Under the pieces are notes generated by a model. It worked only from the letters and a program-made list of their open reading frames with translations. It had not been told where the DNA came from and searched no databases. This document shows positions 5,018 through 63,575 of a stretch of 64,000 bases of DNA, piece by piece. The translations under genes were made by a program, and so were the position numbers. Source of the stretch: Bacillota bacterium (lineage in GTDB: Bacteria > Bacillota > Clostridia > Oscillospirales > Acutalibacteraceae); assembly GCA_022706685.1 (NCBI GenBank), contig JAKJCA010000008.1, positions 1 through 64,000 on the forward strand. The letters are read 5' to 3'. Positions within the stretch are counted from its first letter, which is position 1, and each line of letters begins with the position of its first letter.

Positions 5018-6253
5018 TCAATGCCGTCTTCTTTTCGGTCGCTGGTTGCGGCGGCGCAGGCGGACGGCGAAAGGTTTCAGGAATTTTTGCAGCAGCGCAG
5101 CCGCTTTTCTGCCGGAGGGGTTGCCGGCAATAATCCAGTCCTCGGCCTTTGCGCTGTTTTTCGGCGCGGTTTTCCATGCGAAGGGTTCCAAACCCGGCGA
5201 ACAGTAGCTGCAGAAAGGGTGCGCCTTGCCGAAAAGGCGGTTGATCTCCCAGCCGTTTAAAGACGTATGATACAAATCGACCACTTCTTCGGGGTCGCGC
5301 GCCGGATAATGCAGGCCGAAGGCTTCGTTGAGCCGGCTGCTGTAAAACTGGCGGGTACAGGCGCCGAGCAGGCCGCGTTCCAGCGAGTGGCAACGGGTAA
5401 AGATGCAATGATCATAAGCGCGGTCCGGCGATGCGGCCGGGGTTGCCAAAAGGCCTTTGTAAAATACTTTGATAGGCAGGCTGACGTTATACGAGACGCC
5501 GGCCGCGTCGAGATAATCGGTGATGGATTTCAGCTTTTTGCGCGTCGGCGGGTATGCGGAAATATCGATGGAGCAGTTATACTGCCTGATAACGGCGAGT
5601 TGCCCGCGTTCGAGCTGCTCAAGAAGCAGACTGTTGCTGACCAGACGAAGGTCGCTGTCGGGGAATATTTTACGCGCGGCCTTGATAAAAAGAAGAAAAT
5701 CGGGATTTAACAGCGGCTCGCCGCCCTGTAGTCTGATTTTTCCAATCCCCCAGAAGAATTTTTTCAGCTGTTGCAAATCCTTCGTAAAGGCGTCCAAATC
5801 GGCCGGACACTTGCCGTTAACCAGGTTGGAAAACTGGAAGCAGCCTTTACAGTTGAGGTTGCAGCCGCTGTTGAGCTCGATTTCGACGCGGTCGAGCCGC
5901 GGTTTGCTGTTGTCAATCGCCGTCAGGCAGTGCTGTAAAATGGTTGTTTCCCTGCCGAAAAAATGGGTATCCCAGGGAAAAACGCTCATTTCGAAGATAC
6001 CCAGTTGATGAAACGCCTCGCTGACTTCCTGCAGCTGCTCGTTGCGGAACACAAGAATGATGTGTTTGTTTTCGGCCGCACGCAGGAACGCGGCGAGGCC
6101 GCGCTTCCAGTGCCTGCCCGTCAAAAAAGGCGCGTCTGCGGCGACCGCGCTTTTATGCAGTTGTGCCGCCAGCCAGCGGCTGGCCTGTTTATGGTTTCCA
6201 AAGATGGCGGCTTGGTTCATTTTCAATTTCGGCTCCGGGTCAATACTCGGCAT
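5018..6253 (-). CDS. Radical SAM protein with SPASM/twitch-like Cys tail (twin of 37459-38667)
   Basis: A 411-residue radical SAM enzyme of the type without a cobalamin domain. The SAM-cluster motif C131-x3-C135-x2-C138 lies in N-S-G-C-N-L-N-C-K-G-C, followed by L-Q-G-G-E-P (the GGEP motif that contacts SAM). Towards the C terminus five cysteines form C-x4-C-x10-C and later F-C-S-Y-C, ending in P-F-A-W-K. This suggests one auxiliary iron-sulphur cluster. The same arrangement occurs in the twin at 37459-38667, including F-S-N-L-V after the first cluster. About 120 residues precede the radical SAM core and are of unknown fold. It is upstream of the SDR gene on the same transcript. The substrate is unknown. 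A peptide or sugar substrate is possible, and no precursor-peptide gene was seen nearby. Confidence 0.85.
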   Translation of the reverse strand: MPSIDPEPKLKMNQAAIFGNHKQASRWLAAQLHKSAVAADAPFLTGRHWKRGLAAFLRAAENKHIILVFRNEQLQEVSEAFHQLGIFEMSVFPWDTHFFGRETTILQHCLTAIDNSKPRLDRVEIELNSGCNLNCKGCFQFSNLVNGKCPADLDAFTKDLQQLKKFFWGIGKIRLQGGEPLLNPDFLLFIKAARKIFPDSDLRLVSNSLLLEQLERGQLAVIRQYNCSIDISAYPPTRKKLKSITDYLDAAGVSYNVSLPIKVFYKGLLATPAASPDRAYDHCIFTRCHSLERGLLGACTRQFYSSRLNEAFGLHYPARDPEEVVDLYHTSLNGWEINRLFGKAHPFCSYCSPGLEPFAWKTAPKNSAKAEDWIIAGNPSGRKAAALLQKFLKPFAVRLRRRNQRPKRRRH

Positions 6254-6291
6254 TGGAAAAAGATCGGGCTTCTGCGGCTTTCTTATCTTTA

Positions 6292-6529: not shown

Positions 6530-8134
6530 TTGAGCGCTTTATCCGCGAAAAACAATACGAATCGAAATGGCGACGCGCCTGATTCCCGCTACCCGGCGGC
6601 GAAGCACGGAATGCCGGCCGCTTGGGATGATGTTATCCTGACAGCATCGGACGAAGAACAGGCCGTTTTTTACCGCAACCAAATTCGTTTCAGGCTCTCA
6701 AAAGGCTTGCTTTCGCCCGAAACAAGGTTTGCGGTCGTGCCGGACCTTGAGGGGCAGCGAATCGGCTCGGGCGGCGCGTTTTTCAATGTGCTTAAGCATT
6801 TATGGGAGTTAAACGGCGGGCCCGACAGGTTTGAAAACAGGCGTGTCCTGCTCATCAACAGCGGCGGCGACAGCGTTCGGGTGCCGCAGTATTCTGTTTG
6901 CGGCAAACTGTTCGCGCCTGTCCCGCGCGAGTTGTCCGGCGGCGCGCCGGCGGCGCTCTTTGACGAAATCATGCAATCGCTTGCATGGCTTCCGGCACAA
7001 CTGCCGCCGGGCATCCTGACCGTGAGCGGAGACATCCTTATCCTGTCCCAATCGCCTGCATTCAATTGCGAAGGTTGCGGCGCCGCTGCTTTGTCTGTCA
7101 GGGACAGTGTTTTCAAAGGCGTCGGCCACGGCGTTTTTGTAACCGACGAGCACGGCGTCGTCGTTCGCTTTCTACATAAACGCTCCGCCGAAGAGCAGCG
7201 GCAGGCCGGCGCTGTCGACGGCACGGGCATGGTGCTGATCGATACCGGTGCTATATGGCTGGGTACTGCCGTTGTGCGGGATTTAGCCGGCCTCATCAGC
7301 GCAGCCGGCAAACTTGACGCCGATCAATTCGGCGTTTATGTTAACGGCGAGACGCGTCTTTCTTTCTACACGGACATTGTCTATCCCATGGCGCGGGCAT
7401 CCCGTCTTGAAGAATATTATTCGGAGCAGCCCGAAAACGGCTATACCGACGAACTTCGTTATTGCAGGGAGCGGCTTTGGGGCATATTGCGCAAATATCA
7501 AATGAAAATGATTGAATTGTCGCCGGCTTCTTTTCTCCATTTCGGCACGACGGCGCAGGCGCTTGATGCGATGACCGGCGATATTGAAAAATATTCCGCG
7601 CTCGGTTGGCGGAACCGAGTTCTTTCGGATATCGCGGTCAGAGGCGGCTTCAATGCGCTTTGCTCTTTTGTCGATGCCAATTCCCGCGTCGGCGAAGGCG
7701 CTTATCTCGAAAACAGCGTCGTCATTGGCTCGAAAATCGGCCGCCGCTGTGTCGTTTCCAATATCCGCCTCGACGGTGTCGAAATCCCCGACAACACGGC
7801 CGTTCACTGTCTCAGGCAAAAGGACGGGAACTTTGTCGTCAGGATATATGGAGTTGACGACGATCCGAAACGCGGCCTATGCGACAACGGCACGTTTCTC
7901 AATAGGCCGCTGACCGAATATATGAAAGCGCGCGGTCTTGCGGCGGAAGATTTATGGCCCCGCGAACCTTACGACTTATGGAATGCGAGACTCTACTTAT
8001 CATGCCCGTGCGCCGAAGCGTCTTTAAGCCATGCCCTCGGCTTGTTTGGACGGCCGTCCGGGATTGCCGCGAACGGTCCGCTCTTGAGCATGAAAGAAAG
8101 CGCCGACAACGCCGATAAATCGCTGTTTTTTTAA
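6530..8134 (+). CDS. Fucose-1-phosphate guanylyltransferase-like protein (N-terminal half of Fkp)
   Basis: This 534-residue cytosolic protein matches the fucose pyrophosphorylase domain that forms the N-terminal half of bacterial Fkp. It would join L-fucose 1-phosphate to GTP to make GDP-L-fucose. Visible marks are G-Q-R-I-G-S-G-G-A (75-83), N-S-G-G-D-S-x-R-x-P (110-119), V-S-G-D-I near 165, and a hexapeptide-like C-terminal region with V-V-I-G-S-K-I-G-R-R. The TTG start at 6530 has GAGG seven bases upstream. The kinase half of Fkp is encoded separately at 10913-12262 on the other strand; the combined length is about that of fused Fkp. It is transcribed alone and convergent with the MP genes. 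A related sugar-1-phosphate substrate cannot be excluded. Confidence 0.85.
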   Translation: MSALSAKNNTNRNGDAPDSRYPAAKHGMPAAWDDVILTASDEEQAVFYRNQIRFRLSKGLLSPETRFAVVPDLEGQRIGSGGAFFNVLKHLWELNGGPDRFENRRVLLINSGGDSVRVPQYSVCGKLFAPVPRELSGGAPAALFDEIMQSLAWLPAQLPPGILTVSGDILILSQSPAFNCEGCGAAALSVRDSVFKGVGHGVFVTDEHGVVVRFLHKRSAEEQRQAGAVDGTGMVLIDTGAIWLGTAVVRDLAGLISAAGKLDADQFGVYVNGETRLSFYTDIVYPMARASRLEEYYSEQPENGYTDELRYCRERLWGILRKYQMKMIELSPASFLHFGTTAQALDAMTGDIEKYSALGWRNRVLSDIAVRGGFNALCSFVDANSRVGEGAYLENSVVIGSKIGRRCVVSNIRLDGVEIPDNTAVHCLRQKDGNFVVRIYGVDDDPKRGLCDNGTFLNRPLTEYMKARGLAAEDLWPREPYDLWNARLYLSCPCAEASLSHALGLFGRPSGIAANGPLLSMKESADNADKSLFF

Positions 8135-8220: not shown

Positions 8221-9495
8221 TTATCCGCCGGCAATATGGTAAACGTACCGGTTGAAATAATTTTCAATCAATTCTGCCGTCGCTTCCTTATCTTTGATAA
8301 AAGAGAAAATATCGGTTGCCGCGGCGGAAAAGGTCAAAGCGTTCATGACGATTAAAACGGCCGGCAAAATCAGCGGATGCTCTTCAAAGAATCCGCCGAC
8401 CTTTTCGGCTGCAGAGGTCACCGTTTTTTCCCGCGCGTAAATGAAATAGAAGATTAGGATAAACTGGCCGTTGACCGCTGCCGCCCAGTAGCGGTCCCAG
8501 TCGTTGGCCGCCAGGGCGGCGGGGATGAAAACAAGAGGCGCCGCGGCGCACATCACAAATATCAGCCGCAAAAATTTGCTTGTAGAACGCCTGAGTGCGC
8601 GGTACCATATATAGACAAAGACGGCGATCAGCGGAACGCTGGAAACCAGGTAGAACATCCCGAGAGGCAAAGCGTAACTCGCGGTAAAAGGCAGGGTATA
8701 TTCGAAAAGCCACTCTTTGGCCGGAGCGAAAAAGCCGACATGGAGCATCGGGGCGGAGGCGGCAAAATCCGCTCTTTGCGAAAGATGGGCTGCCAGTTCG
8801 GCCGCGCTGCCGAAAGGAAAATGCGAAGGAGCAAATTGAAAATATGCGAACAGAAGTATCATGACAAGGCAGTTGATGCCGAATAAAAGATAATTGCGAA
8901 AGCGGCGCGGATTTTGATAGACCTCATACAGCATCGGGATAGCCAGCGCCGGCATGTACGTGCTCATGAAACCCTGGTGAATACACAAGGCGGCCGCGCA
9001 CAGCAGCGGGACGGTCCAGCGCAGCACGGGCTTCCTTAATATAGAAAGCGCCAGCAGCGTGAGGATAATCCAGTAGACATCCAGGCGCTGCATATGCATG
9101 CCCAGCAGATAGGTTACCGACAGGGGAGAAGCCAAAAACAGCAAAGCGATTGCGGCGGTTGACTGCCGCGCGGTATGGCCGCTTTTCCTGATCAGGTATC
9201 CGAGAAGCAGTGAAATCTGTGCGGCCATCAGAAGGAAGGATATGACCGAGACAATAAAAATCATTCGGCTGGTAACGATATCGGTGAATAAATAGAGAAT
9301 GGAACCTGCAAACGCTTGAGGGCCGAAACCAAACTCGTAACTGAGCAGGTAAGCCGTCCTTGTGTTGGTGTCGGATACATTGTTGCCGACCAGGAAAAAA
9401 AATTCCAGCAGCAGGAAAGCGAATATAGCGCCCTCATAGACGCCGAAACGCCCGCGCGTTTGCTCAACCAAACGGCTTGTTGAAGGTTTGTCCAA
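8221..9495 (-). CDS. Polytopic membrane protein, MP family
   Basis: A 424-residue membrane protein with about ten predicted helices. TTG 9495 is chosen because AAAGGTGA precedes it at good spacing; the in-frame ATG 9525 has no ribosome site, and longer reading would overlap the upstream gene. Family marks: Y-E-F-G-F-G-P-Q-A-F-A-G-S after the first helix, where Gln replaces the usual Arg; M-Q-R-L-D-V-Y; H-Q-G-F-M-S-T-Y-M-P-A; and N-D-W-D-R-Y-W-A-A-A-V-N-G-Q-F. The conserved acidic sites are intact. It is the last gene before the terminator at 8153-8199 and follows the sister MP gene by 35 bases. Candidate membrane glycosyltransferase or polymerase, by context only. Confidence 0.85.
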   Translation of the reverse strand: MDKPSTSRLVEQTRGRFGVYEGAIFAFLLLEFFFLVGNNVSDTNTRTAYLLSYEFGFGPQAFAGSILYLFTDIVTSRMIFIVSVISFLLMAAQISLLLGYLIRKSGHTARQSTAAIALLFLASPLSVTYLLGMHMQRLDVYWIILTLLALSILRKPVLRWTVPLLCAAALCIHQGFMSTYMPALAIPMLYEVYQNPRRFRNYLLFGINCLVMILLFAYFQFAPSHFPFGSAAELAAHLSQRADFAASAPMLHVGFFAPAKEWLFEYTLPFTASYALPLGMFYLVSSVPLIAVFVYIWYRALRRSTSKFLRLIFVMCAAAPLVFIPAALAANDWDRYWAAAVNGQFILIFYFIYAREKTVTSAAEKVGGFFEEHPLILPAVLIVMNALTFSAAATDIFSFIKDKEATAELIENYFNRYVYHIAGG

Positions 9496-9530
9496 GCATG
9501 TCACCTTTCTGATTATTGTTGCCATCGAGT

Positions 9531-10820
9531 TTACAGGGAAAAGTCGTAATTCGGCAATACTTTCGCGAAAAAGTCCTGCCAAATACTCTTGTCAAGCACA
9601 TCAAGTGTAAAAGACGTGATATTTGACAGCATCAGCGTTCCGGAAAAAACGAGAATACACAGCAAAACCAGTGTGTGACGGCCGAAATAATCATAAACCT
9701 TGCGGATGGAACTCCGGACAGGTGAATCTTTGTTGCTGAGCAGGTAGAACAAGAGTATAAACTGGCAGTTTAGAGCGGCAACCCACCACCGTTCCCAGTC
9801 TTGAGCGAACAGGGCCGCGGGAATAAACGCGAGCGGCGCTGCCGCGCAAAGGATGTAAATAATTCTGGATAAGCGGTCGTTTCCCAGACGGAAACTGCTG
9901 CGCCATACTGCGGCGAAGACGGCTATCAGCGGGATACTGAAAGCAAAAAGTACAAACAGGCTGGGTAAAGCAATATTTTTTGCCATGGGGATTTCAAGTC
10001 CCCAGAAAATATCGGGCTTTGACGGATTGTCCAAATGCGGGCTGATGTATTCCAGATAGAGGACAGGGTTGGATATTTTCATATCGGTTCGGGCGGCAAG
10101 TTCGCGCCCGAATGCTTCCGCATCCTTGAAAGGTACGGCAGGTGACAGGAATTGGAAATAAATAAAAGCACCGAGTATCACTGCGCCGGAAACGGTAAAA
10201 AGAGCAATGCTTGAGCGGGAATATTTGCTTCGGTGTACCTCGTAAAGAAGCGGAATCGCCAATGCGGGCAGATAGGTAACCACATAGCCGGGATGTGTCG
10301 CGACTGCCATAACACCCAAAAAAGGAACCAGCCACCTCAGTCGCGGCGATCTCAGGCATAAAAGTCCCAGGAGCGTCCACAAGAGCAAAAATATATCCAA
10401 ACGCCCAAAGTGGCGCTCCACAAGATAAGTATGGGAAAGCGGTGCAGTTGCAAGCAATAAGAGGAACAGGTACATTGACGGTTTTTCTTCCGCGGGTAAA
10501 CGGCTGGCTATTTTACCAAGCATCAGGGAGGCCAGCCCGAGGGTGAACAAGACTGTTACGGTTATGATTAACATTAATGTGTCACGTGTCAGATAACCGG
10601 TGAAAAGCGAAATAAGCCAGCCGATAAAAGCACGCGGAATCGGCCCGTATTCGTAGGTTAGGGTATAATAAACAGCGACAGCGGGAGAGAAAAAGAATTG
10701 CCGGTTGCGCGCGTAAATGAAAAACCTGAGAAGGAAAAAAACAAAAAGCAGGGCGCCGGGTATAAAGGCGGTTGAAACAGACCCGTTTGTCAGCAGCGGA
10801 TTATTCCGGTTGCTTTTCAT
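9531..10820 (-). CDS. Polytopic membrane protein, MP family
   Basis: A 429-residue membrane protein starting at ATG 10820 behind GGAAAGGATG. Motifs in order: Y-E-Y-G-P-I-P-R-A-F-I-G (57-67), F-G-R-L-D-I-F (138-144), T-H-P-G-Y-V-V-T-Y-L-P-A, and D-W-E-R-W-W-V-A-A-L-N-C-Q-F. Glu replaces the second Asp of the usual D-W-D-R-W, keeping the charge. It resembles the MP protein at 18580-19857 most closely; both have a T-H-P-G-Y segment instead of I-H-Q-G. It is 92 bases downstream of the fucokinase-like gene on the same strand, so it may act on a fucose-derived lipid-linked sugar; that link is inference. Confidence 0.86.
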   Translation of the reverse strand: MKSNRNNPLLTNGSVSTAFIPGALLFVFFLLRFFIYARNRQFFFSPAVAVYYTLTYEYGPIPRAFIGWLISLFTGYLTRDTLMLIITVTVLFTLGLASLMLGKIASRLPAEEKPSMYLFLLLLATAPLSHTYLVERHFGRLDIFLLLWTLLGLLCLRSPRLRWLVPFLGVMAVATHPGYVVTYLPALAIPLLYEVHRSKYSRSSIALFTVSGAVILGAFIYFQFLSPAVPFKDAEAFGRELAARTDMKISNPVLYLEYISPHLDNPSKPDIFWGLEIPMAKNIALPSLFVLFAFSIPLIAVFAAVWRSSFRLGNDRLSRIIYILCAAAPLAFIPAALFAQDWERWWVAALNCQFILLFYLLSNKDSPVRSSIRKVYDYFGRHTLVLLCILVFSGTLMLSNITSFTLDVLDKSIWQDFFAKVLPNYDFSL

Positions 10821-10912: not shown

Positions 10913-12262
10913 TCAAACAAAATCACATTCCCAAACCTCAATGCCCCGGCCGGGGAACGATTCTTTGAGGCGGTCGTTGAGCTGCTGTCTGCTGAAACCT
11001 TCGCGCAGAATGATTTGGATAAAGCCGCCGCCGCCAGCCCCGCAGATCATTCTGCCCGCCGTCATATCAGCGCAGGCGCGAAAAATCTTCTCGAGGTCTT
11101 CGTCAGCGAAGCCTGTGTCGAGCGTCTTCGTCAGTTGTGTCTGGCGGTTGAGGTTGGCGATGAACCCGTCCATATTGCCGGCTTCGATGTTCTTTTTTGC
11201 CTCCAGGGCGAGTTCACGCGTCTGCCGAAGGCTCTCGACAAACAGGGCGTCCGATTGGATATATCCGCTCATAATTTGCCGGAGTATGGTTCTGCCGAGT
11301 CTTCTCCTTCCGCTGTAAACCAGGCAGAAACGCTTGCGCAGTTCTTCCATGAACATCGGCGGAGCCAGCAACTGTTCGCTGCGCACTTCCTGCCTGTTGC
11401 CGCGTTCCGCCCGTACCAGTTTGATGCCGCCGGCCAGGCCGCCCATCTGATCCTGCCAGCCTCCGCCCGTACCCATGAGTTGTTCCGCCAGCAGAACGCG
11501 GCGGCAGATTTCCGCGTCGGAAGCGTCGATTCCCTGAAAAGCCAAAAGCCCCTTGACGCAGGCCGCGAGAAGGATGCTGCTGGTCCCCAGGCCGGACCCT
11601 TTTGGTATGTCGACAACCCCAGTCGACAGATGTAGGCCGCCCGAAAGGCACTCGAAAAGATTCCATCTTTCTTCCCGCCCCGGAAAAGCGACAAGACCGC
11701 AGACCATCAGAGCGGCTTGAAGCAGCGGAAAAGGGTTTTGCTCGATGGAAAAATCGGACAGCTGTTTTGTTTCGCGGAACTCGCCGATATCGCCCGAGTC
11801 AAAATATTCCAGTACAATTTTCGGTTCGCTTATTTTTTCTGCCAGAACCCTGACCGGCAGCCGGCCTTTAATTTTGACGGCGACGTTCACCACGGCGCCG
11901 CCATTCTCCAGGCAATAGGGCGGGGTATCCGTCCACCCTCCGCACCAGTTTACGCGAAGCGGCAATTCAAGATGTACGCTGTCGTTTTTTGCGGCCGGTT
12001 TGGGGAAATCGACGCCGCCCGGGAAAGTGCCTTGCTGTACCATTTCGCGGACGCAGCGGAAACTTTTATCCTCCAGCCGTGCACGGATTTCTCCCGCCGC
12101 AATATATGAAGCATAACTATATGCCCGCATTTGTTCTTCCAGCGGAAGACATTGAACTGCCCGGCTAAGCATTTCGGCTGTTATACGGTCGATTCCGCCA
12201 TGTTCGAAATGGCCCGCAGCGATCTTAACCGGAGTTCCGATCTTTATTGAAGACAAGAACAA
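10913..12262 (-). CDS. Fucokinase-like GHMP kinase (C-terminal half of Fkp)
   Basis: This protein of at least 449 residues matches the kinase half of Fkp and should phosphorylate L-fucose at O1 using ATP. It has the GHMP substrate motif N-W-C-G-G-W-T-D-T-P-P-Y (105-116), the ATP loop G-S-G-L-G-T-S-S (222-229) and the third motif C-G-A-G-G-G-G-F near residue 410. The N-terminal segment P-V-K-I-A-A-G-H-F also fits this group. The start is uncertain: TTG 12262 lacks a ribosome site. In-frame ATA 12292 has AAAGGA ten bases upstream and would give 459 residues. Its partner guanylyltransferase is at 6530-8134. A heptose kinase of the HddA type is a less likely alternative, because HddA lacks this N-terminal region. 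Confidence 0.85.
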   Translation of the reverse strand: MFLSSIKIGTPVKIAAGHFEHGGIDRITAEMLSRAVQCLPLEEQMRAYSYASYIAAGEIRARLEDKSFRCVREMVQQGTFPGGVDFPKPAAKNDSVHLELPLRVNWCGGWTDTPPYCLENGGAVVNVAVKIKGRLPVRVLAEKISEPKIVLEYFDSGDIGEFRETKQLSDFSIEQNPFPLLQAALMVCGLVAFPGREERWNLFECLSGGLHLSTGVVDIPKGSGLGTSSILLAACVKGLLAFQGIDASDAEICRRVLLAEQLMGTGGGWQDQMGGLAGGIKLVRAERGNRQEVRSEQLLAPPMFMEELRKRFCLVYSGRRRLGRTILRQIMSGYIQSDALFVESLRQTRELALEAKKNIEAGNMDGFIANLNRQTQLTKTLDTGFADEDLEKIFRACADMTAGRMICGAGGGGFIQIILREGFSRQQLNDRLKESFPGRGIEVWECDFV

Positions 12263-15069: not shown

Positions 15070-15215
15070 TGCAACCACAGCCTTTCAAAATTGATTGTTT
15101 AATAAGAAAGAGTAACAAACAAAGAAGAACTTTTGAAAAAAGCACTTTTATCAGTTACTGCCGGTAGAGCAAGCGCGGCTACTGTTCGCATGAACATTAA
15201 AGAACCTGTCTTTAT

Positions 15216-17369: not shown

Positions 17370-17421
17370 CAGGGGTCAAAAATCTGTTTGAATGCGGGAA
17401 CAAACAAAACAGAGTGATGTA

Positions 17422-22170: not shown

Positions 22171-22318
22171 AGAATCACTCCGTCGTCTGCTGTTCGGCAG
22201 GGGATAGGTGCTTTTTTCTACGGTTGATCTTTTCCGGCGCTGCCCGGACAAACTGAATTCCATCAACGATTTTTCGGCGTAAAATAAACGTTACTGCTGA
22301 GATGAACGGTTGATTTTA

Positions 22319-33492: not shown

Positions 33493-33501
33493 GAAAAAGC
33501 C

Positions 33502-53757: not shown

Positions 53758-53793
53758 GCGCACAGCCTCCTTTCTCAATACGGCCGGCCGCTA

Positions 53794-55737: not shown

Positions 55738-55798
55738 TGAACAGCGCTTCCTTCGTTTGTTCTTTCGTTCAAAATTTCCGTCAGCAATCGGGTTCGTA

Positions 55799-57766
55799 TT
55801 ACCCGGCTGTCTGATCCTTGTAGCCGACTTCCCGTGCGTACCTTCCTCCGCTGTACAGCGCTGCATCGTCTCTTCTTCCGAGCCAGACGATTTCGCGTGC
55901 ATAATCCTCCCACGTTTCGGCGGCGCGGTCGTTATGGATGAGCAGAATGCTTTTGCGTTCGGCCAACGGCGCGTACGCCCCGCGGTAAATATTTTCAAAG
56001 TAGGCGGGGAAATCATAGTCCGATTCGATACGCCTTTTTGTTTCGAATGGCAGTTTGACAAGTTCCCGCTGATAACGCAGCAGCGGCTCTTTCATTTCAC
56101 CAAGCCGGTAGCGTTCCAGAAACCGGCCCATCTCCCGGTAAAAGGCGTCGATGTTTTTAACCAACTCCAAAAAAGCGAGTTCTTCGAAACCCCAGGTGAG
56201 GTTGCCGAACTCTTCGAGCGCGAAAACCCAGGCATGCCGTCCTTCGCTGACACCCGCGGTTAAATCGGCAAGGTTTTCATATACCTTGTTGACAATGGTG
56301 CCGGGCGTATGCTTGAAGAATTGCAGCAGCTGCGTATAAAACTCCAGGTAAGCGACGCCGCGCTCATGGCGCAGATACATGGCTACCGCCCGGGTCGGGC
56401 CGATATTGTGCAGCGCCAGCACCGTGAAGGAGAAAATCGCCGCTTGGACCCATTCTTCGCGCGACATTGTGGCGGTGGCCACGACAAATTCGGAGTATTC
56501 CTGTATTTCCGCCGCGCTGTCGGGAATCGGGCAGTGTATCTGGTAAAATGGCAGCCGTACCGATTGGATGCCGTGTTTTTTCTGATAAAGCGGATCACCC
56601 AGCCTGGAGTTGGGCAGCAGTTCGCAGGCGTACACGTTGATGGATTTATGCTGACCGCATTCCAGAAGTGTACAGATGCCCTCGCAGAAACTGCCGCAGG
56701 TTTCGCCGGGCAGGCCAAGAATCAATTCCGAGGAGGTGGAAACGCCGGTACGGTTGTACAGCGCCATCAGCTCTTTGAAATGGTTGAGGTCCATGTTTTT
56801 TCTGCCGATGTTGTTTAACGCGGCCGGCGACAGGCTTTGATAGGAGAGCGGCAGCGACTTGTCCAGACTGTTGGCGTAGAATTTGCCGATGATATCCTCC
56901 ACCGTCGCGGTGATATTTTTAGCGATATTGACCCTGAACCGCTGCGGGAAGCCTTTTTCGTTTTTGAGTTTCACAATCAAATCCGTGATTTTGCTGTCAC
57001 GTTCAAATAAGCCGAAGTTCGCGTCGCCGCAGTATATATATTCGATTTTCTTTTCCGCAATCCAGTTGAGCTCGCGTTCGATCTTATCCAGCGGAAAGAG
57101 TTTGACTTTTGTTTTCAAGTCTCCCCAGTCGCAAAATGCGCAGTTGTTCGGACAGCCGCGGTTCGTTTCGATAATAGCCGAAAAACGGATGCCGTCTTGA
57201 AGGATATCATCAAAATAACCTTCCAGATACGGTGAGGGATAATCATTCGTATCACGCTGCTTTTTCAGGTTTGTAACCGTTCCGCCGCCGGGACTGCGGT
57301 AAGAAATGTTCGGAATATCGCCCCACGGCATATAACCTGCGACGGCCAGCAGAACATCCCTGAACGCTTCCTCGCCGCCGCCGTGCACCAAAACGTCGAC
57401 ATATTCGAAATCAGCGAGGTTCGAGGCGTCCGGCGACACATGGTGCCCGCCGAAAAGGATGATGCAGGAAGGGTAAAGTTTTTTGATTTTTTGGGCCAGC
57501 GCCTTATTGTACTCCATATTCCACACGCTGCATGAAAAAGCTGCAAGCGCGGGGGCGTCCAATGACGCGGCGGCAGTCCCGACGTCTTCCCTGGTATAAA
57601 TGAAACGGCCGAGCCGGAAGTTCGCTTTAACGCGTTCATCCGCCCAGGCGAACGCGGCGATGCAGCCCGCGGCATAGGGAATATAAACCGTCTTCTCGGT
57701 TTCACCGTAAACGGGGTTTGCCTGAATGATATAGACGTTTTTTCGGGTTTGATCAGCCGTTTGCAT
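55799..57766 (-). CDS. Cobalamin-dependent-type radical SAM enzyme, RS2 family copy 4 (CDWG subgroup)
   Basis: A 655-residue RS2 protein, the longest copy. ATG 57766 has AAGGCGGA upstream and lies 14 bases inside the preceding RS2 gene, so translation is coupled. Y-I-P-Y-A-A-G, F-G-G-H-H-V and H-G-G-G-E (Gly replacing Glu of G-E-G-E) mark the N-terminal domain. Cluster motif R-G-C-P-N-N-C-A-F-C-D-W-G, then C-G-D-A-N-F-G. The C-terminal domain contains A-T-M-S-R-E-E-W and L-H-N-I-G-P-T-R-A-V, a departure from G-L-L-R-C-F. Substrate unknown. Confidence 0.86.
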   Translation of the reverse strand: MQTADQTRKNVYIIQANPVYGETEKTVYIPYAAGCIAAFAWADERVKANFRLGRFIYTREDVGTAAASLDAPALAAFSCSVWNMEYNKALAQKIKKLYPSCIILFGGHHVSPDASNLADFEYVDVLVHGGGEEAFRDVLLAVAGYMPWGDIPNISYRSPGGGTVTNLKKQRDTNDYPSPYLEGYFDDILQDGIRFSAIIETNRGCPNNCAFCDWGDLKTKVKLFPLDKIERELNWIAEKKIEYIYCGDANFGLFERDSKITDLIVKLKNEKGFPQRFRVNIAKNITATVEDIIGKFYANSLDKSLPLSYQSLSPAALNNIGRKNMDLNHFKELMALYNRTGVSTSSELILGLPGETCGSFCEGICTLLECGQHKSINVYACELLPNSRLGDPLYQKKHGIQSVRLPFYQIHCPIPDSAAEIQEYSEFVVATATMSREEWVQAAIFSFTVLALHNIGPTRAVAMYLRHERGVAYLEFYTQLLQFFKHTPGTIVNKVYENLADLTAGVSEGRHAWVFALEEFGNLTWGFEELAFLELVKNIDAFYREMGRFLERYRLGEMKEPLLRYQRELVKLPFETKRRIESDYDFPAYFENIYRGAYAPLAERKSILLIHNDRAAETWEDYAREIVWLGRRDDAALYSGGRYAREVGYKDQTAG

Positions 57767-59702
57767 GATTTCCGCCTTCGTTGATATATTCAACGCGTAC
57801 ATTTTTGAGCGCCGACGTCATCACCGTGTCGCCGCGCCGCTTGGCAAAAAGCATCACCAGCCGCGCATATTCCTTCCAGTTGCCTATAGTTTCATCGGCT
57901 GTGAGTGTCAGCCGGTTGGCTTTTTTTTCAAGCGGGCTGTAACGGCCGGCTTGGATGTTGAAAAAATAACGGTAAAAATCATATTGCTGTTCCAGCACTA
58001 CTTTTTCACGGCCGGGCAGACGGATGATATTTTTCTGGTAATTGTACAACTGGGCGGCAACGGCTTTATCGATATCGAAACTGGACAAAAACGGTTCAAT
58101 CTCCGCCCAGAACCTTTCGTAATCGTAAACGAGTTCCATGAAAGCGCCTTCTTCCAGAAACCAGCCCGTTTCGCCGAAGCGGGAATCCTGATAAGTCCAT
58201 TCGCCGCTTTCGATATCAAGGCACATCGCGCTGACGCGCTTGAAAAGCGGCCTTATCAGCGTTGTGTCCGCTTCAAGCACGTAATCCATCAGCCGGGTGT
58301 AGAAGTCCAGGTAAGCGATATCATGCTCGTGGCGCAGGTACATCGCGAAACAGCGCAGCAGGCCGATGTGGTGAAAGCACTGCAGGCAGGTGCAGAATGT
58401 CATGGCCCGGGCCATCATTGCCCGGCTCATATCGGCGGTTTCCACTACGACGTCGATGTATTCCCGTATCTCGCCTTCGCGCGGCGGTACAAAGCGGATG
58501 AAGTTGATGGGCATGCGCGCAATGACGATGCCGTACCGGTCGCGGTATTCCTGCTGTCCCATCAGCGAATTCGGGTAGACCTGGCAGGCGTAGACGGTGC
58601 AGTTGGTGTGCTGGCCTGCTTCAATCAGGTCGCAAAGCCCGCGGCAGAAAGAATCGTAAGTTTCGCCGGGCAGGCCGAGAATCATTTCCGTATAGGTCGG
58701 TATGCCTGCCTCGTTGTATTGCCGAAGCAGTTTTGAAAAGTTCTCGACCGTGAAATTCTTCCGGTTGACGTTTTCCAGCGCAGCGGTGTTCATCGACTGA
58801 TAAGCCAGCGTCGCGGCCTTGTTGGCTTTGTTGTCATAAAGCAGTTTGGAAATCTGGAACACGGTGTCATTGCTGTTTTTGGCATAGCAGCCGTTGAAAA
58901 TCAAGGGATAACCGGTTCGCTTTTTGACCTCGACGATATATTTCGCGATGTCCAGATCCCTTTCAAGGATGCCGAAGTTGGCGTCCGCGCAAAAAATGTA
59001 CTCCGCCTTTCTGGAAGCAAACCAGTCAACCTCGCTTTTGACGCGGCTCATGGGGATCGTTCTGATTTCTTTCGTAAAGCACCAGTCGCAATAGGCGCAG
59101 CGGTAAGGGCAGCCGCGGTTGGTCTCCATGATATAGCAGAATTCGTCTGCCCGGCCCGCGTCGATATACCTGTCAAACAAACCGGCCAAATAGGGGGAAG
59201 GGTAGTCGGCCAGATTGCCGGGGGCGGCATTTTTTGTTCTGCGCGGCCCGTCTGTGGCGCGGTAGGAAATATTGGGTACATCGTCGAGGCTGTTGCCGCC
59301 GGCCAGCGCGCGAAGCGCGGCAAGAAAGGACTCCTCGCTTTCCGCGTGAAAAAGCACGTCGACGAAGGGATTGTCGTTCAGCGCCGAGAAATCGTTGGTA
59401 ATCTGGTGTCCGCCGAAGAATATCAGGCAATCGGGATAACGCTCTTTGACTTTTTTCGCAAGGGCCTTGCTATACTCGTAGTTCCAGTTCAGGCAGGTAA
59501 ATGAGACGATCGCCGGATCTTTAATTTTTTTAAGGCAGGCGTCGACGCTTTCGTGCCGGAAAAGAAAATCCGCGATTTCGTATTCGCCGCGGACTGTTTC
59601 GTCCTGCCAGGCGAAGGCGGCGAGGCAGCCCGCGGAATAGGGTAAATAAACCGCGCGCTCATAGGTCATGCCGGACTGTACAAAATAGACTTTCTTTTTC
59701 AT
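57753..59702 (-). CDS. Cobalamin-dependent-type radical SAM enzyme, RS2 family copy 5 (CDWC subgroup)
   Basis: A 649-residue RS2 protein from ATG 59702, which overlaps the upstream stop by four bases. Y-L-P-Y-S-A-G, F-G-G-H-Q-I and H-A-E-S-E replace the usual V and G-E-G-E wording, so the N-terminal cobalamin-type site may be modified. Cluster motif R-G-C-P-Y-R-C-A-Y-C-D-W-C-F-T-K-E-I-R; this T-K-E-I-R stretch is shared with copy 1 at 40741. C-A-D-A-N-F-G and L-G-L-P-G-E-T-Y are normal. F-H-H-I-G-L-L-R-C-F lies in the C-terminal domain. It and copy 1 form a clear subpair. Confidence 0.86.
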   Translation of the reverse strand: MKKKVYFVQSGMTYERAVYLPYSAGCLAAFAWQDETVRGEYEIADFLFRHESVDACLKKIKDPAIVSFTCLNWNYEYSKALAKKVKERYPDCLIFFGGHQITNDFSALNDNPFVDVLFHAESEESFLAALRALAGGNSLDDVPNISYRATDGPRRTKNAAPGNLADYPSPYLAGLFDRYIDAGRADEFCYIMETNRGCPYRCAYCDWCFTKEIRTIPMSRVKSEVDWFASRKAEYIFCADANFGILERDLDIAKYIVEVKKRTGYPLIFNGCYAKNSNDTVFQISKLLYDNKANKAATLAYQSMNTAALENVNRKNFTVENFSKLLRQYNEAGIPTYTEMILGLPGETYDSFCRGLCDLIEAGQHTNCTVYACQVYPNSLMGQQEYRDRYGIVIARMPINFIRFVPPREGEIREYIDVVVETADMSRAMMARAMTFCTCLQCFHHIGLLRCFAMYLRHEHDIAYLDFYTRLMDYVLEADTTLIRPLFKRVSAMCLDIESGEWTYQDSRFGETGWFLEEGAFMELVYDYERFWAEIEPFLSSFDIDKAVAAQLYNYQKNIIRLPGREKVVLEQQYDFYRYFFNIQAGRYSPLEKKANRLTLTADETIGNWKEYARLVMLFAKRRGDTVMTSALKNVRVEYINEGGNHANG

Positions 59703-61648
59703 GTAGCCCCCGCATCCGGCTGCGTTTGGCCGTCCAGGTATTCCGTTTCGGTCTCGCCTTTGTTGCTGGTGTGCAGCGTCGCGCCCCTGCGCCGACCGTA
59801 CCAGACGGTTTCCCTGGCGTAGTCTTTCCAGTTCGCCGTTGCGTTGCCCGCGATGCGCAGGATGTTGCCCCGGATGACCGGCGCCTCGCGTCTGCCTGCG
59901 TAAACGCCGTCAAAGTAACCGTACCAGTCATACGCCAAGGTCAAAACAACCGCTTGTGTACCGGGCCTTTTAACGATAGCTCTCTGATAAGCGGCGAGGT
60001 CGGCATATACCCCGTCCTCCCAATGGAATGTGTCGAGAAAGGCTTTGATTTCATTCCAGAAGCGGTCGTATTGCAACAGGATTTCAAGAAAAGCGCCTTC
60101 CTCCGGGAACCAGGCGCCCTCGCCGAAAAGTTCGTTGCGGTACATCCATTTGCCGTCGGTCAGGTTTTCAAATTCCTTTCGGAACCGCTCGAAGAGTTCG
60201 TAAACGAGCGTACCTTTGGCCGAAACGGCGAATTCCAGCAGTCGGCGGTAGAAATCGATGTACTTCAAACCGTTTTCATTGCGCTGGTAAATCGCGAAAC
60301 AGCGCAGCAGCCCCAGATTATGAAAACATTGCACCAGGATGCTGAACAGGTTGGCCTTGACCCACTGGTCCCCGTTCAAGGTGTTTGTGCCGACGACCAG
60401 ATAGGAATACTCCGTTACCTCCTCGTCTTTTTCCGCGCTGTGTATATGGTTGAAAGGCATTTTGGCGACACGGATGCCGTGCTTTTTGATATATGCCGGC
60501 TGCGCCATCTCCGAGTTCGGCAGCATTTCGCAGTGGTAAACACTGATGGAATTGTGCTGGCCCGCTTCCAGCAGGCCGCAGATACCGTCGCAGAAACTGT
60601 CATACGTTTCGCCCGGCAACCCGAGGATTAGTTCCGAGTAGGAGGGGATACCCGCTGCGTTATATTTAGCCAGCAGGCCTGCGAACTTATCCAGCGTCAG
60701 GTTGAGGCGGTTGACGTTTTCAAGCGCGTCGTCGCTGAGCGTCTGGTAGGCGAGCGTCGCGCCCTTGTCCATTTCAACACTGTTGAGTTTCCTGCTGATT
60801 TCAAAAACGTTGTCGTCGCTGTTTTTTGCGTAGCAGGGCCGGAACACTTTCGGGTATCCGGTCCTCCGTTTGGCCTCGACCAGATAATCGACGATCTCCA
60901 GGTCTCGGCGGTACATGCCGAAGTTGGCGTCCGCGCAGAAACAATACTCGATTTTATTCTCAGCCAGCCAGTCAATCTCTGCCTTGATTCGCTCCATCGG
61001 GAAAAACCGAACTGTCTTACCTGCGCACCAGTCGCAGTAGGAACAGCGGTAAGGGCAGCCGCGGTTGGTCTCAAGCACCGCTAAAAAGTCCGTGCCGCGG
61101 TTCTCCGCAATCAGGTTGTCGAATACTCCCGACAAATAGGCGGAAGGGCAGCGTTCGAGCGCGGGAGGTCCCGCCTCCGGTGTGCTGACGACGCTTCCGT
61201 TTTCACGGTATGATATGCCGTTCACGGCATTCAGGGCCCCGGTGCCGAGCGCCGCCAGCAGCTGCGCAAAGGTTTCCTCGCCCTCTCCATGCACCAGAAT
61301 ATCGACGTATTCTTCCTTCTCCAGCATCGCCCCGCCCGGCGTGACATGATGGCCGCCGAAGACGATAAGGCATTCGGGGTGGAAGGCTTTGATTTTTTTC
61401 GCCAGCGCTTTGTTGTATTCGTAATTCCAAACACAGCATGAAAAACCGGCGAGGAAAGGGCTCTCCATCCGACCGGCGGCTTCGTCGAGCTTCTCGCGCC
61501 GGAAAATGAAGTCCTTAAACACGTAGCGTTCGCGTATCACGGCATCCTGCAGCGCGTAAGCCGCCAAAGCGCCCGCCGCGCAGGGAAAATACAGCGATTG
61601 GTCGAACGCAAAACCGGCCTGGATGAGATAGATATTCTTCTTACGCAT
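59699..61648 (-). CDS. Cobalamin-dependent-type radical SAM enzyme, RS2 family copy 6 (CDWC subgroup)
   Basis: A 649-residue RS2 protein starting at ATG 61648, inside the end of the upstream gene by eight bases. Y-F-P-C-A-A-G, F-G-G-H-H-V and H-G-E-G-E mark the cobalamin-type domain. Cluster motif R-G-C-P-Y-R-C-S-Y-C-D-W-C, then C-A-D-A-N-F-G, L-G-L-P-G-E-T-Y, E-A-G-Q-H-N-S. C-terminal F-H-N-L-G-L-L-R-C-F, and the end is Thr/Gln/Pro-rich. GC content is higher here than in the RS1 block. Second in transcription order of the array. Confidence 0.86.
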   Translation of the reverse strand: MRKKNIYLIQAGFAFDQSLYFPCAAGALAAYALQDAVIRERYVFKDFIFRREKLDEAAGRMESPFLAGFSCCVWNYEYNKALAKKIKAFHPECLIVFGGHHVTPGGAMLEKEEYVDILVHGEGEETFAQLLAALGTGALNAVNGISYRENGSVVSTPEAGPPALERCPSAYLSGVFDNLIAENRGTDFLAVLETNRGCPYRCSYCDWCAGKTVRFFPMERIKAEIDWLAENKIEYCFCADANFGMYRRDLEIVDYLVEAKRRTGYPKVFRPCYAKNSDDNVFEISRKLNSVEMDKGATLAYQTLSDDALENVNRLNLTLDKFAGLLAKYNAAGIPSYSELILGLPGETYDSFCDGICGLLEAGQHNSISVYHCEMLPNSEMAQPAYIKKHGIRVAKMPFNHIHSAEKDEEVTEYSYLVVGTNTLNGDQWVKANLFSILVQCFHNLGLLRCFAIYQRNENGLKYIDFYRRLLEFAVSAKGTLVYELFERFRKEFENLTDGKWMYRNELFGEGAWFPEEGAFLEILLQYDRFWNEIKAFLDTFHWEDGVYADLAAYQRAIVKRPGTQAVVLTLAYDWYGYFDGVYAGRREAPVIRGNILRIAGNATANWKDYARETVWYGRRRGATLHTSNKGETETEYLDGQTQPDAGAT

Positions 61649-63575
61649 TGCCGCCGTCCTTTGCCGTCACAAATCCGGAGAAGATATTCTTGCTTTCTTT
61701 TCGGCCGTACCAGACCACGTAGCGCGCGTAAGAAGCCCAGTCCGTCATGATGTCGCTGTCGGCGATTTTCAGCGTGATGCGCTGCCTGACCGGCGCCGCG
61801 CTTTCGCCTTTGAATTTGGCCGCGAAGTAGTCGTGCAGGTTGTACGCCAGGTCGAACTCGGCGGTTTTGCGGTTCGGCCTTTTGATGATGTTGCGCTGGT
61901 AAAGCAGCAAACTGTCAAAAAGGTCGTCGGGAAGTCCGAATGCGCGAAGGAAATCTGCGATTTCATCATAGAAAGTGTCGATCTCTCTGACGATTTTCAA
62001 AAAAGCGTATTCTTCGAACGGCCACGATATTTCCCCGAATTCGCTGTCATAACATAACAGCCCGCCCCGGCCCTCGACCACTTCGCGCAGGCGCCGGCGT
62101 ATGTCGGCGAAGACCCTCCCGCATACGCTTGCGGCGTGATGGTCGATGTAAGCGAGCAGCCGCTCATAAAAGTCAATGTAGGCCACCTTTTTTTCGTCGT
62201 GCAGGGCGATGGCGAAAAACTGCAGCAGGTTCATATGGTGGAAGCACTGCACGGTGTAGGAGAGCATATTGGTTTCAATCCACATGTCGTGGTCCATCGA
62301 AGCGGTTTTGGTGACGATTTGCGAATATTCCGGTATTTCGCCGCTGTCTTTCGACAGCGCCATGTGCGGCTGGTTGAGCGGTATTTTGCTGATGCCGATG
62401 CCGAAGCGCTCGATATAAGCGCGGCTCCCCATCGCGGAACACGGCAGCCACTCGCAGTTGTGCACATAGATGGCGTGGTGCTGCCCCGCTTCCATGAGCA
62501 TATTGAGCCCGTCGGCATAGCTTCTGTAGGTCTCGCCCGGCAGGCCGAGGATCAGTTCCGTATAGGTGGGGATATTCGCCGCGTTGTACAGGCGCATCAG
62601 TTTTTTATAATGCTGCAGGCTGACGTTGGTTCTCCCGACATTGGCGGACGCTTCGGGGCACAGCGTTTGAAAAGCCAGCGTGACCCCTTTGTTCATGTCG
62701 CTGTCATGCAGTTTCTTGCCGATGTTGTATATGCGCTGGCTGTTGTTCTTTGCGTATGACGTTTGAAACTTTTTCGGGTAACCGGTTGTGTTTTTTAATT
62801 CGATCAAACGGTCGATGATTTCCTCGTCGCGCGCAAGAATGCCGAAGTTTGCGTCGGCGCAGCCGAAAAACTCGATTTTTCGTTTGCAGGCCCATTCGAA
62901 TTCGTCGTAGACCCTTTGCAGCGGGAAACGCCTGATTTTGGCACGCAGGCTGCCCCAATCGCAGTAGGAGCAGCTGTACGCGCAGCCGCGGTTGGTTTCG
63001 AACATCAACTCGAAACTCAGTTCCGGATGGCCGCTGACGATGTCGTCAAAATACCCTTCCAGATACGGGGAGGGATAATCACAGCTGGAATACTCCTTGT
63101 AAGGCGTGTTGAAGGCTTTGCCGCCTTCACGGAAAGAAATGTTGGGGATTTCATGCAAATTCCCCTTGCCGAGCAGCGCAAGAAGGATTTGCCGCAGCGG
63201 TTCTTCCCCTTCTCCGTGCACGAGGATGTCCATATACGCGAAACGGTCCAGCAATTCGCCGCCAGGCGCCACATGGTGTCCGCCGAAGACGATGATGCAT
63301 CCCGGATATGCCCGCTTGAATTTTTCCGCGAGTATCTTGTTGTATTCGAAATTCCATACATAGGAAGAAAAACCGATCAGAAACGGTTCTTCGGCCTGGG
63401 CGACGCAGGTATCCGGATCTTCGCGCAGGAACTGGATTTTTTTCAATTCGCAGTTTTCCCGGATGACGGGGTCGCTGAAAACATAAGCCGCCACCGCGCC
63501 CGCCGCGTAAGGCAGATGGGCGGAGTTGCCGTAGAGGTAATTCGGTTGTATCATGTATATGTTCTTGCGGTTCAT
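61641..63575 (-). CDS. Cobalamin-dependent-type radical SAM enzyme, RS2 family copy 7 (CDWG subgroup)
   Basis: A 644-residue RS2 protein, first RS2 in the array, starting at ATG 63575 only three bases after the GT2 stop. H-L-P-Y-A-A-G, V-W-N-F-E-Y-N-K (73-80), F-G-G-H-H-V (97-102) and H-G-E-G-E (120-124) form the cobalamin-type domain. Cluster motif C198-x3-C202-x2-C205 with Ala in place of Pro after the first Cys (R-G-C-A-Y-S-C-S-Y-C-D-W-G). C-A-D-A-N-F-G, L-G-L-P-G-E-T-Y and E-A-G-Q-H-H follow. C-terminal T-A-S-M-D-H-D-M-W and F-H-H-M-N-L-L-Q-F-F, the latter like copy 2. Confidence 0.87.
   Translation of the reverse strand: MNRKNIYMIQPNYLYGNSAHLPYAAGAVAAYVFSDPVIRENCELKKIQFLREDPDTCVAQAEEPFLIGFSSYVWNFEYNKILAEKFKRAYPGCIIVFGGHHVAPGGELLDRFAYMDILVHGEGEEPLRQILLALLGKGNLHEIPNISFREGGKAFNTPYKEYSSCDYPSPYLEGYFDDIVSGHPELSFELMFETNRGCAYSCSYCDWGSLRAKIRRFPLQRVYDEFEWACKRKIEFFGCADANFGILARDEEIIDRLIELKNTTGYPKKFQTSYAKNNSQRIYNIGKKLHDSDMNKGVTLAFQTLCPEASANVGRTNVSLQHYKKLMRLYNAANIPTYTELILGLPGETYRSYADGLNMLMEAGQHHAIYVHNCEWLPCSAMGSRAYIERFGIGISKIPLNQPHMALSKDSGEIPEYSQIVTKTASMDHDMWIETNMLSYTVQCFHHMNLLQFFAIALHDEKKVAYIDFYERLLAYIDHHAASVCGRVFADIRRRLREVVEGRGGLLCYDSEFGEISWPFEEYAFLKIVREIDTFYDEIADFLRAFGLPDDLFDSLLLYQRNIIKRPNRKTAEFDLAYNLHDYFAAKFKGESAAPVRQRITLKIADSDIMTDWASYARYVVWYGRKESKNIFSGFVTAKDGGNA

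Follow-up and report, generated by a model that had tools for sequence, protein, structure and literature searches.

A 64,000-nucleotide stretch of DNA (the window) from an uncultured gut/digester bacterium of the Oscillospiraceae, Clostridia, carries 19 radical SAM open reading frames. We found that seven of these, the RS2 family, are related in sequence, over their full length, to the carbon methylases TokK and CysS, which depend on B12, methylation itself being a prediction, and that the ten-member membrane family MP is modeled with the fold of a GT-C glycosyltransferase, an activity that is likewise predicted. The reading toward which we lean, at slightly better than even, is that a GDP-heptose-type sugar carried on polyprenyl phosphate is C-methylated serially by radical chemistry and that the GT-C enzymes attach it to a surface glycan or protein. 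All data are draft metagenome assemblies.

Results

Nineteen radical SAM genes in one locus

The 19 proteins, encoded between 5018 and 63575, all match PF04055 above the Pfam cut-off and all contain CxxxCxxC; an earlier note on this DNA had counted ten RS1, seven RS2 and two SPASM-like genes with intact motifs, and this count is right. Genome-wide there are 46 PF04055 matches in 2.78 Mb, so that about one would be expected in 64 kb, and chance clustering was rejected. The locus extends past the window to the end of the contig at 76010. The B12-binding domain PF02310 scores above its cut-off in 16 of the 17 RS1 and RS2 proteins (six of the seven RS2), the exception being RS2 57753 at 30.7 versus 32.1 bits, and the cobalamin-type assignment made in the earlier note thus holds. 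MiaB/RimO methylthiotransferases, an identity named beforehand as one that would speak against the proposal, were rejected for both families: against a TIGR00089 cut-off of 251 bits, three RS1 proteins score 42.8, 49.9 and 50.8 bits and two RS2 proteins 31.1 and 30.3 bits, a B12-binding domain being present instead. The two MoaA-like genes are:

5018..6253, minus: MoaA/SPASM-like radical SAM without a B12 domain (PF04055, 42.1 bits)
37459..38667, minus: MoaA/SPASM-like radical SAM without a B12 domain (Pfam)

RS2 proteins are relatives of TokK and CysS

An RS2 profile searched against the PDB matches TokK (E 3.7e-145) along the greater part of each chain. The C-terminal domain is largely covered, with the alignment extending to TokK residue 609 of 681, so this domain is homologous as well. 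CysS is matched with E 1.3e-73. The residues to which roles have been ascribed in TokK-type enzymes (Trp, Ser and the lower-axial Trp; PMC9692996, PMC12846815, PMC11659888) are nearly invariant. The three radical SAM cysteines are kept in 209 of 210 RS2 sequences, a Trp two residues after the third cysteine (TokK W215) in 207 of 210, Ser or Thr at the position equivalent to TokK Ser72 in 203 of 210, and the lower-axial Trp (TokK W76) in 202 of 204; in the window the exception is RS2 40741, with Gly at the W76 position. Two RS2 scores against the KedN5 subfamily model NF033712, 225.7 and 280 bits, fall far below the cut-off of 700, and sequence therefore does not assign RS2 to a subfamily whose substrate is known. 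The RS2 genes, with identities to their counterparts in locus L001, are:

40741..42726, minus: RS2, TokK-like, lower-axial Trp replaced by Gly (Pfam and alignment)
51829..53778, minus: RS2 array gene 6; 71% identity to the sixth L001 gene (Pfam and orthology)
53794..56061, minus: RS2 array gene 5, listed start too far upstream, alignable only from ~55725 (true start ~55.7 kb); 73% to the fifth (Pfam and orthology)
55799..57802, minus: RS2 array gene 4; 55% to the fourth (Pfam and orthology)
57753..59702, minus: RS2 array gene 3; 68% to the third (Pfam and orthology)
59699..61648, minus: RS2 array gene 2; 74% to the second (Pfam and orthology)
61641..63575, minus: RS2 array gene 1; 72% to the first (Pfam and orthology)

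RS2 gene order is conserved

The six window copies that form the array have orthologs in a sister species in identical order, each copy representing a distinct, old lineage that has an ortholog at the same position. Of 115 adjacent RS2 pairs across 75 loci, 114 follow a single order, and at finer subfamily cuts no adjacent pair comes from one subfamily. Recent tandem duplication was rejected, orthologs being 55-74% identical versus ~36-46% for paralogs. Conserved order and one-to-one orthology point to a fixed series, and they suggest, at the level of sequence, that the six-gene run is a fixed ordered pathway rather than a collection of interchangeable variants.

This bears on the earlier note's proposal of a combinatorial system, in which interchangeable paralogs would diversify the glycan, either inside one strain or from strain to strain. 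The paralogs are indeed numerous, RS1 26677, 28531 and 30161 form a window-specific group, as do several MPs, and the system is unevenly spread across the taxonomic order, where 2 of 295 genomes have RS2. The age and collinearity of the RS2 lineages nevertheless argue against such a repertoire, and we consider it unlikely. The proposal is not supported for RS2, whereas the window-specific expansion of RS1 and MP (RS1 26677 and 28531 are ~64% identical, MP 12332 and 22319 ~53%) may reflect some lineage-specific diversification in those families.

RS1 is a second B12-radical SAM family

The model of RS1 28531 (AF2 pLDDT 88) has AprD4 (Z 30.2), MgmA (Z 28.6) and OxsB as its nearest folds. Three RS1 proteins score 92.3, 69.8 and 74 bits with the AprD4 model NF033070 versus a cut-off of 500, and 135.7, 114.2 and 122.2 bits with the MgmA/MJ_0865 glutamine methylase model TIGR04014 versus 360. 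The RS1 genes are:

20692..22266, minus: RS1 B12-radical SAM (PF04055 87 bits, PF02310 68.9 bits)
26677..28164, minus: RS1 (Pfam)
28531..30081, minus: RS1, modeled (Pfam; AF2)
30161..31675, minus: RS1 (Pfam)
31903..33603, minus: RS1, listed start over-extended, match from ~33411 (Pfam)
35760..37274, plus: RS1 (Pfam)
42803..44281, plus: RS1 (Pfam)
44512..45972, plus: RS1 (Pfam)
45969..47450, plus: RS1 (Pfam)
47474..48925, plus: RS1 (Pfam)

The RS1 C-terminal regions are strongly basic, with a net charge of +6 to +16 per 90 residues and amphipathic stretches, and RS1 proteins give sub-threshold matches to lipid-pathway models such as HpnJ. Both features would suit radical enzymes whose target is the lipid part, a polyprenyl carrier or membrane lipid, rather than the sugar; the operon partners, however, are GDP-sugar genes and not isoprenoid or fatty-acid genes, and we give a lipid target a small chance, somewhat below that of a variable repertoire.

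MP proteins are predicted to fold as GT-C glycosyltransferases

By sequence, MP has no PDB match up to E=1 and nothing above cut-off in Pfam, NCBIfam or the PDB, with one weak PMT_2 match in Pfam. The model of MP 12332-13618 (AF2 pLDDT 85), compared with known structures, gives 41 top rows that are all GT-C (Z 8.2-14.0), the next row falling to 4.2; Foldseek returned no E below 0.001. In the aligned MP sequences the canonical acidic residue of the first GT-C external loop is not readily made out, and the near-invariant D152 (numbered in 12332-13618) sits elsewhere. The ten copies that the earlier note had counted are present, two of them (3010-4011 and 13954-15078) divergent or incomplete.

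1788..2993, plus: MP, GT-C-type (family profile 441 bits)
3010..4011, plus: MP, divergent/short copy without the N-terminal ~76 positions (263 bits)
8221..9582, minus: MP, GT-C-type (547 bits)
9531..10820, minus: MP, GT-C-type (530 bits)
12332..13618, minus: MP, GT-C-type, modeled (AF2; 41 top GT-C rows)
13954..15078, minus: MP, divergent copy (two partial matches, 170 and 103 bits)
18580..19857, minus: MP, GT-C-type (549 bits)
22319..23620, minus: MP, GT-C-type (544 bits)
48996..50246, plus: MP, GT-C-type (492 bits)
50432..51682, plus: MP, GT-C-type (514 bits)
38847..40715, minus: MP2, a second membrane family without a Pfam or NCBIfam match; homologs in 5 RS2 loci (profile searches)

Large Ser/Thr-rich secreted proteins adjoin MPs in loci L086, L091 and L103. 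Amino-acid side chains of such giant repeat proteins could be what RS2 and RS1 methylate, B12-radical SAM peptide methylases being known, but such secreted proteins accompany only a minority of the arrays, RS2 is nearest to small-molecule methylases, and no RiPP recognition domain was seen in the Pfam scans of RS1 and RS2. We find this the least probable of the alternatives.

Sugar-nucleotide genes and RS2 neighborhoods

The remaining genes assigned in the window are:

402..1748, plus: UDP-glucose/GDP-mannose dehydrogenase (PF03721/PF00984/PF03720)
4039..4926, minus: RmlD-like reductase (PF04321, 92.5 bits); homologs adjoin RS2 arrays in 18 of 75 loci
6530..8134, plus: fucose-1-phosphate guanylyltransferase half, GDP-sugar supply (PF07959, 265 bits; best NCBIfam model the bifunctional fucokinase/guanylyltransferase)
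10913..12262, minus: fucokinase-like GHMP kinase half (NF009948, 284.6 bits)
15426..17369, plus: GHMP kinase fused to a GalU-like nucleotidyltransferase (profile matches)
17392..18390, plus: GtrB-like polyprenyl-phosphate glycosyltransferase, one of a family of three (PF00535)
19926..20672, minus: GT2b, dolichol-phosphate-mannose (DPM)-synthase-like GT2 (PF00535; sole PDB match 5mlz)
23742..24707, minus: GtrB-like polyprenyl-phosphate glycosyltransferase (profile match)
24733..25509, minus: sugar isomerase-like TIM barrel (PF01261)
25510..26616, minus: epimerase/reductase-like (weak PF01370)
33642..34673, plus: GtrB-like polyprenyl-phosphate glycosyltransferase (profile match)
34411..35793, plus: DegT/DnrJ/EryC1 sugar aminotransferase (PF01041, 383 bits); listed start over-extended, alignment from ~34729
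63579..63998, minus: GT2b at the head of the six-gene RS2 run, running off the window (GT2b profile match); same position in L090 and L094

The sole PDB match of GT2b, the DPM synthase 5mlz, was obtained with E 9.9e-8 and 3.4e-9. RS2 and MP occur in the same 5 of 59 related genomes (6 of 60 with the bacterium's own), and RS1 in four of those five (five of six); the lack of co-occurrence that the earlier note had named as refuting is thus not seen. In flanks of up to 10 kb around the 75 RS2 loci, the recurrent neighbors are GT2b (41 loci), RS1 (30), MP (27), cupin (25), HddC-GmhB (23), HddA (22), RmlD (18) and SDR (18), and in other species RS2 arrays stand in operon-like runs with HddA, HddC-GmhB, cupin, reductases and the DPM-synthase-like GT2. 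For the heptose-type genes of these loci, the closest NCBIfam models include HddA, HddC and GmhB: in relatives' RS2 operons, the kinase has HddA as its best model at 147.6 versus a cut-off of 600 bits, the HddC-like gene scores 70.8 versus 300, and GmhB (TIGR00213) is above its cut-off at 150.3 versus 149.6. About two thirds of RS2 loci have no heptose genes in the fetched flanks. Heptose genes are absent from the window; elsewhere in the same genome, an MP on contig C60 has HddA-, SDR-, cupin- and HddC-like genes next to it, and the genome also encodes a GmhA-like SIS protein. The window's split fucokinase/fucose pyrophosphorylase suggests GDP-fucose, but identifying the sugar from the window's genes alone was rejected: the pyrophosphorylase was not detected close to RS2 in any of the 75 named loci, the fucokinase-like kinase turns up in L071 and L099 only, L099 being in the same genus, and heptose-type genes recur instead. 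A GT-C fold for MP, DPM-synthase-like GT2 genes by the arrays and GDP-heptose-type operon genes strengthen the link to lipid-linked glycans drawn in the earlier note.

The nearest characterized RS2 relatives work on antibiotic scaffolds, and RS2 might similarly alkylate the non-sugar scaffold of a secreted small molecule, with the sugar genes decorating it. Yet no PKS, NRPS or beta-lactam gene is found among the searched window genes or the noted recurrent neighbors, and at least ten GT-C enzymes would be excessive for a glycosylated small molecule; we judge this origin improbable, slightly more so than a lipid target.

Discussion

A proposed pathway

Our favored pathway, serial C-methylation of a carrier-linked sugar, rests on family and fold assignments, conservation of catalytic residues, co-occurrence, operon sharing and collinearity, from which we infer what the substrates are, that the RS2 reaction here is methylation, in what order the steps run and what the final acceptor is. 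Kinases, guanylyltransferases and epimerase/reductase-type enzymes would make GDP-activated sugars, of the GDP-D-glycero-D-manno-heptose type (with genes on another contig and in relatives' RS2 operons) and here probably also of the GDP-fucose type. The DPM-synthase-like GT2b and the GtrB-like GT2 enzymes would then load the sugar onto polyprenyl phosphate. The six fixed-order TokK/CysS-class RS2 enzymes and the one separate copy would methylate unactivated carbons, each at its own position or stage, and RS1 enzymes would add radical reactions of their own, either C-methylation or deoxygenation of the AprD4 type; the substrate of these radical steps could be the nucleotide sugar, the sugar on its polyprenyl carrier or the chain as it grows. 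Finally, on the outside of the cell, the GT-C membrane enzymes would attach the completed sugars to a glycan or a large surface protein. No flippase was identified.

A more specific version, which we entertain only tentatively and well short of even, is a radical assembly line in which the fixed-order B12 methylases would act successively on polyprenyl-phosphate-linked manno-heptose or its short oligosaccharide, gene order reflecting that of the reactions, to give a hyper-C-methylated, lipophilic bacterial surface glycan of a so far unknown type.

RS2 homologs are found on hundreds of Clostridia metagenome stretches, many of them sharing operons with genes for sugar activation, and bacteria of the rumen, gut and digesters may therefore use B12 radical methylation routinely in making their surface polymers. 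If so, a new class of carbon-branched surface sugars is predicted, surface structure would be tied to the supply of vitamin B12, and the arrays would offer a natural set of divergent, order-conserved TokK homologs for studying carbon choice.

Comparison with known systems

Paper searches of the open-licence literature matched no prior description of this system. B12-dependent radical methylases are mostly known singly, in antibiotic pathways, and MoeK5 of moenomycin is a single B12-radical SAM methylase of a sugar-containing natural product. GenK performs radical C-methylation in the sugar pathway of gentamicin (PMC4039129). Each of these two pathways has one such enzyme, whereas the window holds an array in an apparent surface-glycan locus.

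The carbapenem C6 methylases TokK and ThnK share with RS2 near full-length homology, the layout of B12-binding, radical SAM and C-terminal domains, and the same catalytic Cys, Trp and Ser positions, but TokK is a single enzyme that acts three times on a carbapenam, while RS2 genes come as two to six divergent homologs in fixed-order operons that include GDP-sugar genes. CysS, the iterative methylase of cystobactamid, belongs to the same B12-dependent C-methylase class, with homology limited to CysS residues 21-463, another scaffold and a single gene. Of the nearest RS1 folds, AprD4 is a sugar-acting enzyme, the paromamine 1,2-diol dehydratase, and MgmA the Mcr glutamine C-methylase; RS1 differs from both in lying far below their NCBIfam cut-offs, in its strong B12-binding match, in its basic C-terminal extension and in having up to ten paralogs. 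The combination of DPM-like GT2 and GT-C enzymes recalls Dol-P-Man/ALG/PMT-type and ArnT-type GT-C pathways, from which MP is set apart by its lack of an above-cut-off sequence match in Pfam, NCBIfam or the PDB and by its pairing with radical SAM arrays.

Radical SAM inventory and distribution

All 19 radical SAM genes that the earlier note had claimed are found in the window, and all ten members of RS1 and all seven of RS2, its two B12-type families, carry Pfam radical-SAM and B12-binding domains; the B12-binding match of the RS2 gene 57753 (genes are named by start coordinate) falls slightly below the cut-off, the sole such case in either family. The other two genes are 33% identical to each other:

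5018-6253, MoaA/SPASM-like radical SAM, without a B12 domain
37459-38667, MoaA/SPASM-like radical SAM, without a B12 domain

The 2.78-Mb genome that carries the window has 46 matches to PF04055, and the chance expectation for the window is ~1. The contig is 76,010 bases long, the window being its bases 1-64000, and several starts in the mechanical ORF list are over-extended. The genome appears to be congeneric with those of contigs DCTF01000073 (Oscillospiraceae bacterium UBA1447), JAAYFA010000132 and JAAYSC010000003. RS1 26677-28164 and a downstream epimerase-like gene, 25510-26616, share one frame with a single TGA between them (891 aa if read through).

The earlier note had made co-occurrence of RS1, RS2 and the ten-member membrane family MP in other genomes a check of its reading, and among 59 relatives they do co-occur. 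RS2 is present in 6 of 60 genomes (our own and the relatives), MP in the identical six, and RS1, at the thresholds used, in five of these and in none of the remainder. By hand calculation, full coincidence of the five RS2-positive with the five MP-positive relatives has a probability of ~2e-7 if genomes are independent, which related genomes are not, and of ~3e-5 by genus (3 of 57, own genome left out); all genomes are draft metagenome assemblies. In the order at large, RS2 occurs in two of 295 genomes sampled and MP and RS1 in our own only, which makes the system rare and patchy there. RS2 relatives are encoded on 413 stretches of the named collection; all of the 75 loci retained belong to Clostridia metagenome assemblies, mostly ruminant and some, judged by isolate name, probably from digesters.

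RS2 enzymes and their order

By sequence, the RS2 proteins are enzymes of the class of TokK and CysS, B12-dependent carbon methylases of antibiotic scaffolds, with profile matches of 3.7e-145 and 1.3e-73, respectively. In TokK, W76 lies beneath the cobalt and W215, two residues past the last cluster cysteine, touches SAM and cobalamin (PMC9692996; PMC12846815), while Ser72 grips the cobalamin tail (PMC11659888). Of 210 RS2 homologues, 209 conserve the three cysteines, 207 have tryptophan at the W215 position, and 203 have Ser/Thr where TokK has Ser72; tryptophan occupies the W76 position in 202 of the 204 homologues aligned there. One window copy, 40741, has glycine at the W76 position, where TokK is reported to tolerate several substitutions (PMC9692996). 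RS2 does not reach the KedN5-subfamily cut-off, and its substrate is thus not readable from sequence.

Six RS2 genes form a run in the window, in the order 61641, 59699, 57753, 55799, 53794, 51829. In a tree of 210 RS2 proteins these match the six-gene array of a sister species (L001) one-to-one and in order, and the first five pair likewise with the genes of L002; identity is 55-74% for diagonal (orthologue) pairs and mostly 36-51% off the diagonal. Across all loci, 114 of 115 adjacent same-strand RS2 pairs follow the majority order and one is reversed, where random order would give ~32 reversals (lowest among 500 trials, 22-23), statistics that are descriptive because the loci, from different species, are not phylogenetically independent. 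No adjacent pair belongs to the same subfamily at two finer cuts, 94 pairs are found in at least two loci (shuffled mean 20-27), and several orders are repeated, for example C-G-D-H, I-B-A and E-F. The earlier note had proposed a combinatorial set; for RS2, the fixed order points instead to a set sequence of steps.

Two RS2 units share a single 1294-aa frame at L072:6097-9978, possibly a natural fusion or a draft-assembly artefact. Some RS2 genes of relatives' contigs G002:C60, G003:C16 and G001:C60 are stop-broken or split over two frames (one TAG, one TAG, two TGA, and split frames), through decay or draft-assembly errors.

Probable sugar supply

Within flanks of up to 10 kb at the 75 RS2 loci, we counted GT2b, a dolichol-phosphate-mannose-synthase-like GT2, at 41, RS1 at 30, MP at 27, cupin at 25, the HddC-GmhB fusion at 23, HddA at 22, and RmlD-like and SDR genes at 18 each. 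These neighbours stand in operon-like runs, such as GT2b-RS2x5-RmlD-HddC/GmhB-HddA-SDR-cupin (L090) and HddA-cupin-HddC/GmhB-RS2x4-GT2b (L036/L041). Among heptose-type NCBIfam models, GmhB is matched at the equivalog cut-off and all others below it. In our genome, contig C60 carries at its end HddA-, SDR-, cupin- and HddC-like genes with an MP next to them (L087), and contig C102 encodes a SIS protein that resembles GmhA. A GT2b frame in the window, from 63579 on the minus strand, lies immediately upstream of the six-gene run, the placement seen in L090 and L094. The only solved relative of GT2b is dolichol-phosphate-mannose synthase, a likeness that fits a GDP-manno-configured donor, and the neighbours as a whole point to GDP-heptose and polyprenyl-linked sugars.

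A sugar-isomerase-like TIM barrel (24733-25509) and a kinase-nucleotidyltransferase fusion (15426-17369) are not conserved RS2 neighbours elsewhere, which suggests a strain-specific sugar supply.

The membrane family MP

The predicted structure of MP, built from 24 sequences (pLDDT 85), scored Z 8.2-14.0 against 41 GT-C structures (ALG12, OST, PglB, PMT, AftB, ArnT and others), with unrelated proteins beginning at 4.2. With Foldseek alone, no match fell below 0.001, the top ones still being of the same class; on the model, MP is a GT-C family. Large Ser/Thr-rich secreted proteins adjoin MP genes in L086, L091 and L103, and the one in L086 (L086:11144-19999, contig C63), which lies beside two MP genes, is 2952 aa or longer and contains 13 repeats of the Listeria-Bacteroides (Flg_new) type; these proteins are candidate acceptors.

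The window also encodes a 622-aa membrane protein (38847-40715) that has no Pfam or NCBIfam match; its homologues are encoded next to RS2 at 5 of the 75 loci, and also occur in L099. Outside the window, L084 (contig C83:64001-76010) holds three similar large membrane proteins (1858-3426, 3430-5046, 5804-7432), of which the one scanned is DUF6056, alongside one more MP, a GtrB-like GT2, and GDSL lipase-like and NodU/carbamoyltransferase-like proteins.

Proposed pathway and RS1

From draft metagenome genomes, flanks of up to 10 kb, sequence and predicted structures, we infer the pathway's substrate, product and reaction order: GDP-sugars would be produced and passed onto polyprenyl phosphate, B12 radical enzymes would remodel the sugars, and GT-C enzymes would hand them to a surface glycan or protein. 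We found no earlier description of such a system in the open-licence literature searched.

RS1 scores far below every curated NCBIfam cut-off. Its 'VGxS' motif has a serine that resembles the cobalamin-tail contact, and 37 of 43 sequences retain it. The C-terminal 90 residues of RS1 carry a net charge of +6 to +16 and include amphipathic stretches, a basic end that would suit a membrane-bound substrate. In a relative (L097, G003:C23, 140-7890), five tandem RS1 genes without RS2 precede Gfo/Idh-type and sugar-isomerase-type genes. RS1 chemistry may be methylation or deoxygenation. The folds nearest to the RS1 model (pLDDT 88) are AprD4 (Z 30.2), MgmA (28.6), OxsB (27.9) and TsrM (26.9), and the first of these, AprD4, is a diol dehydratase that acts on the aminoglycoside paromamine.
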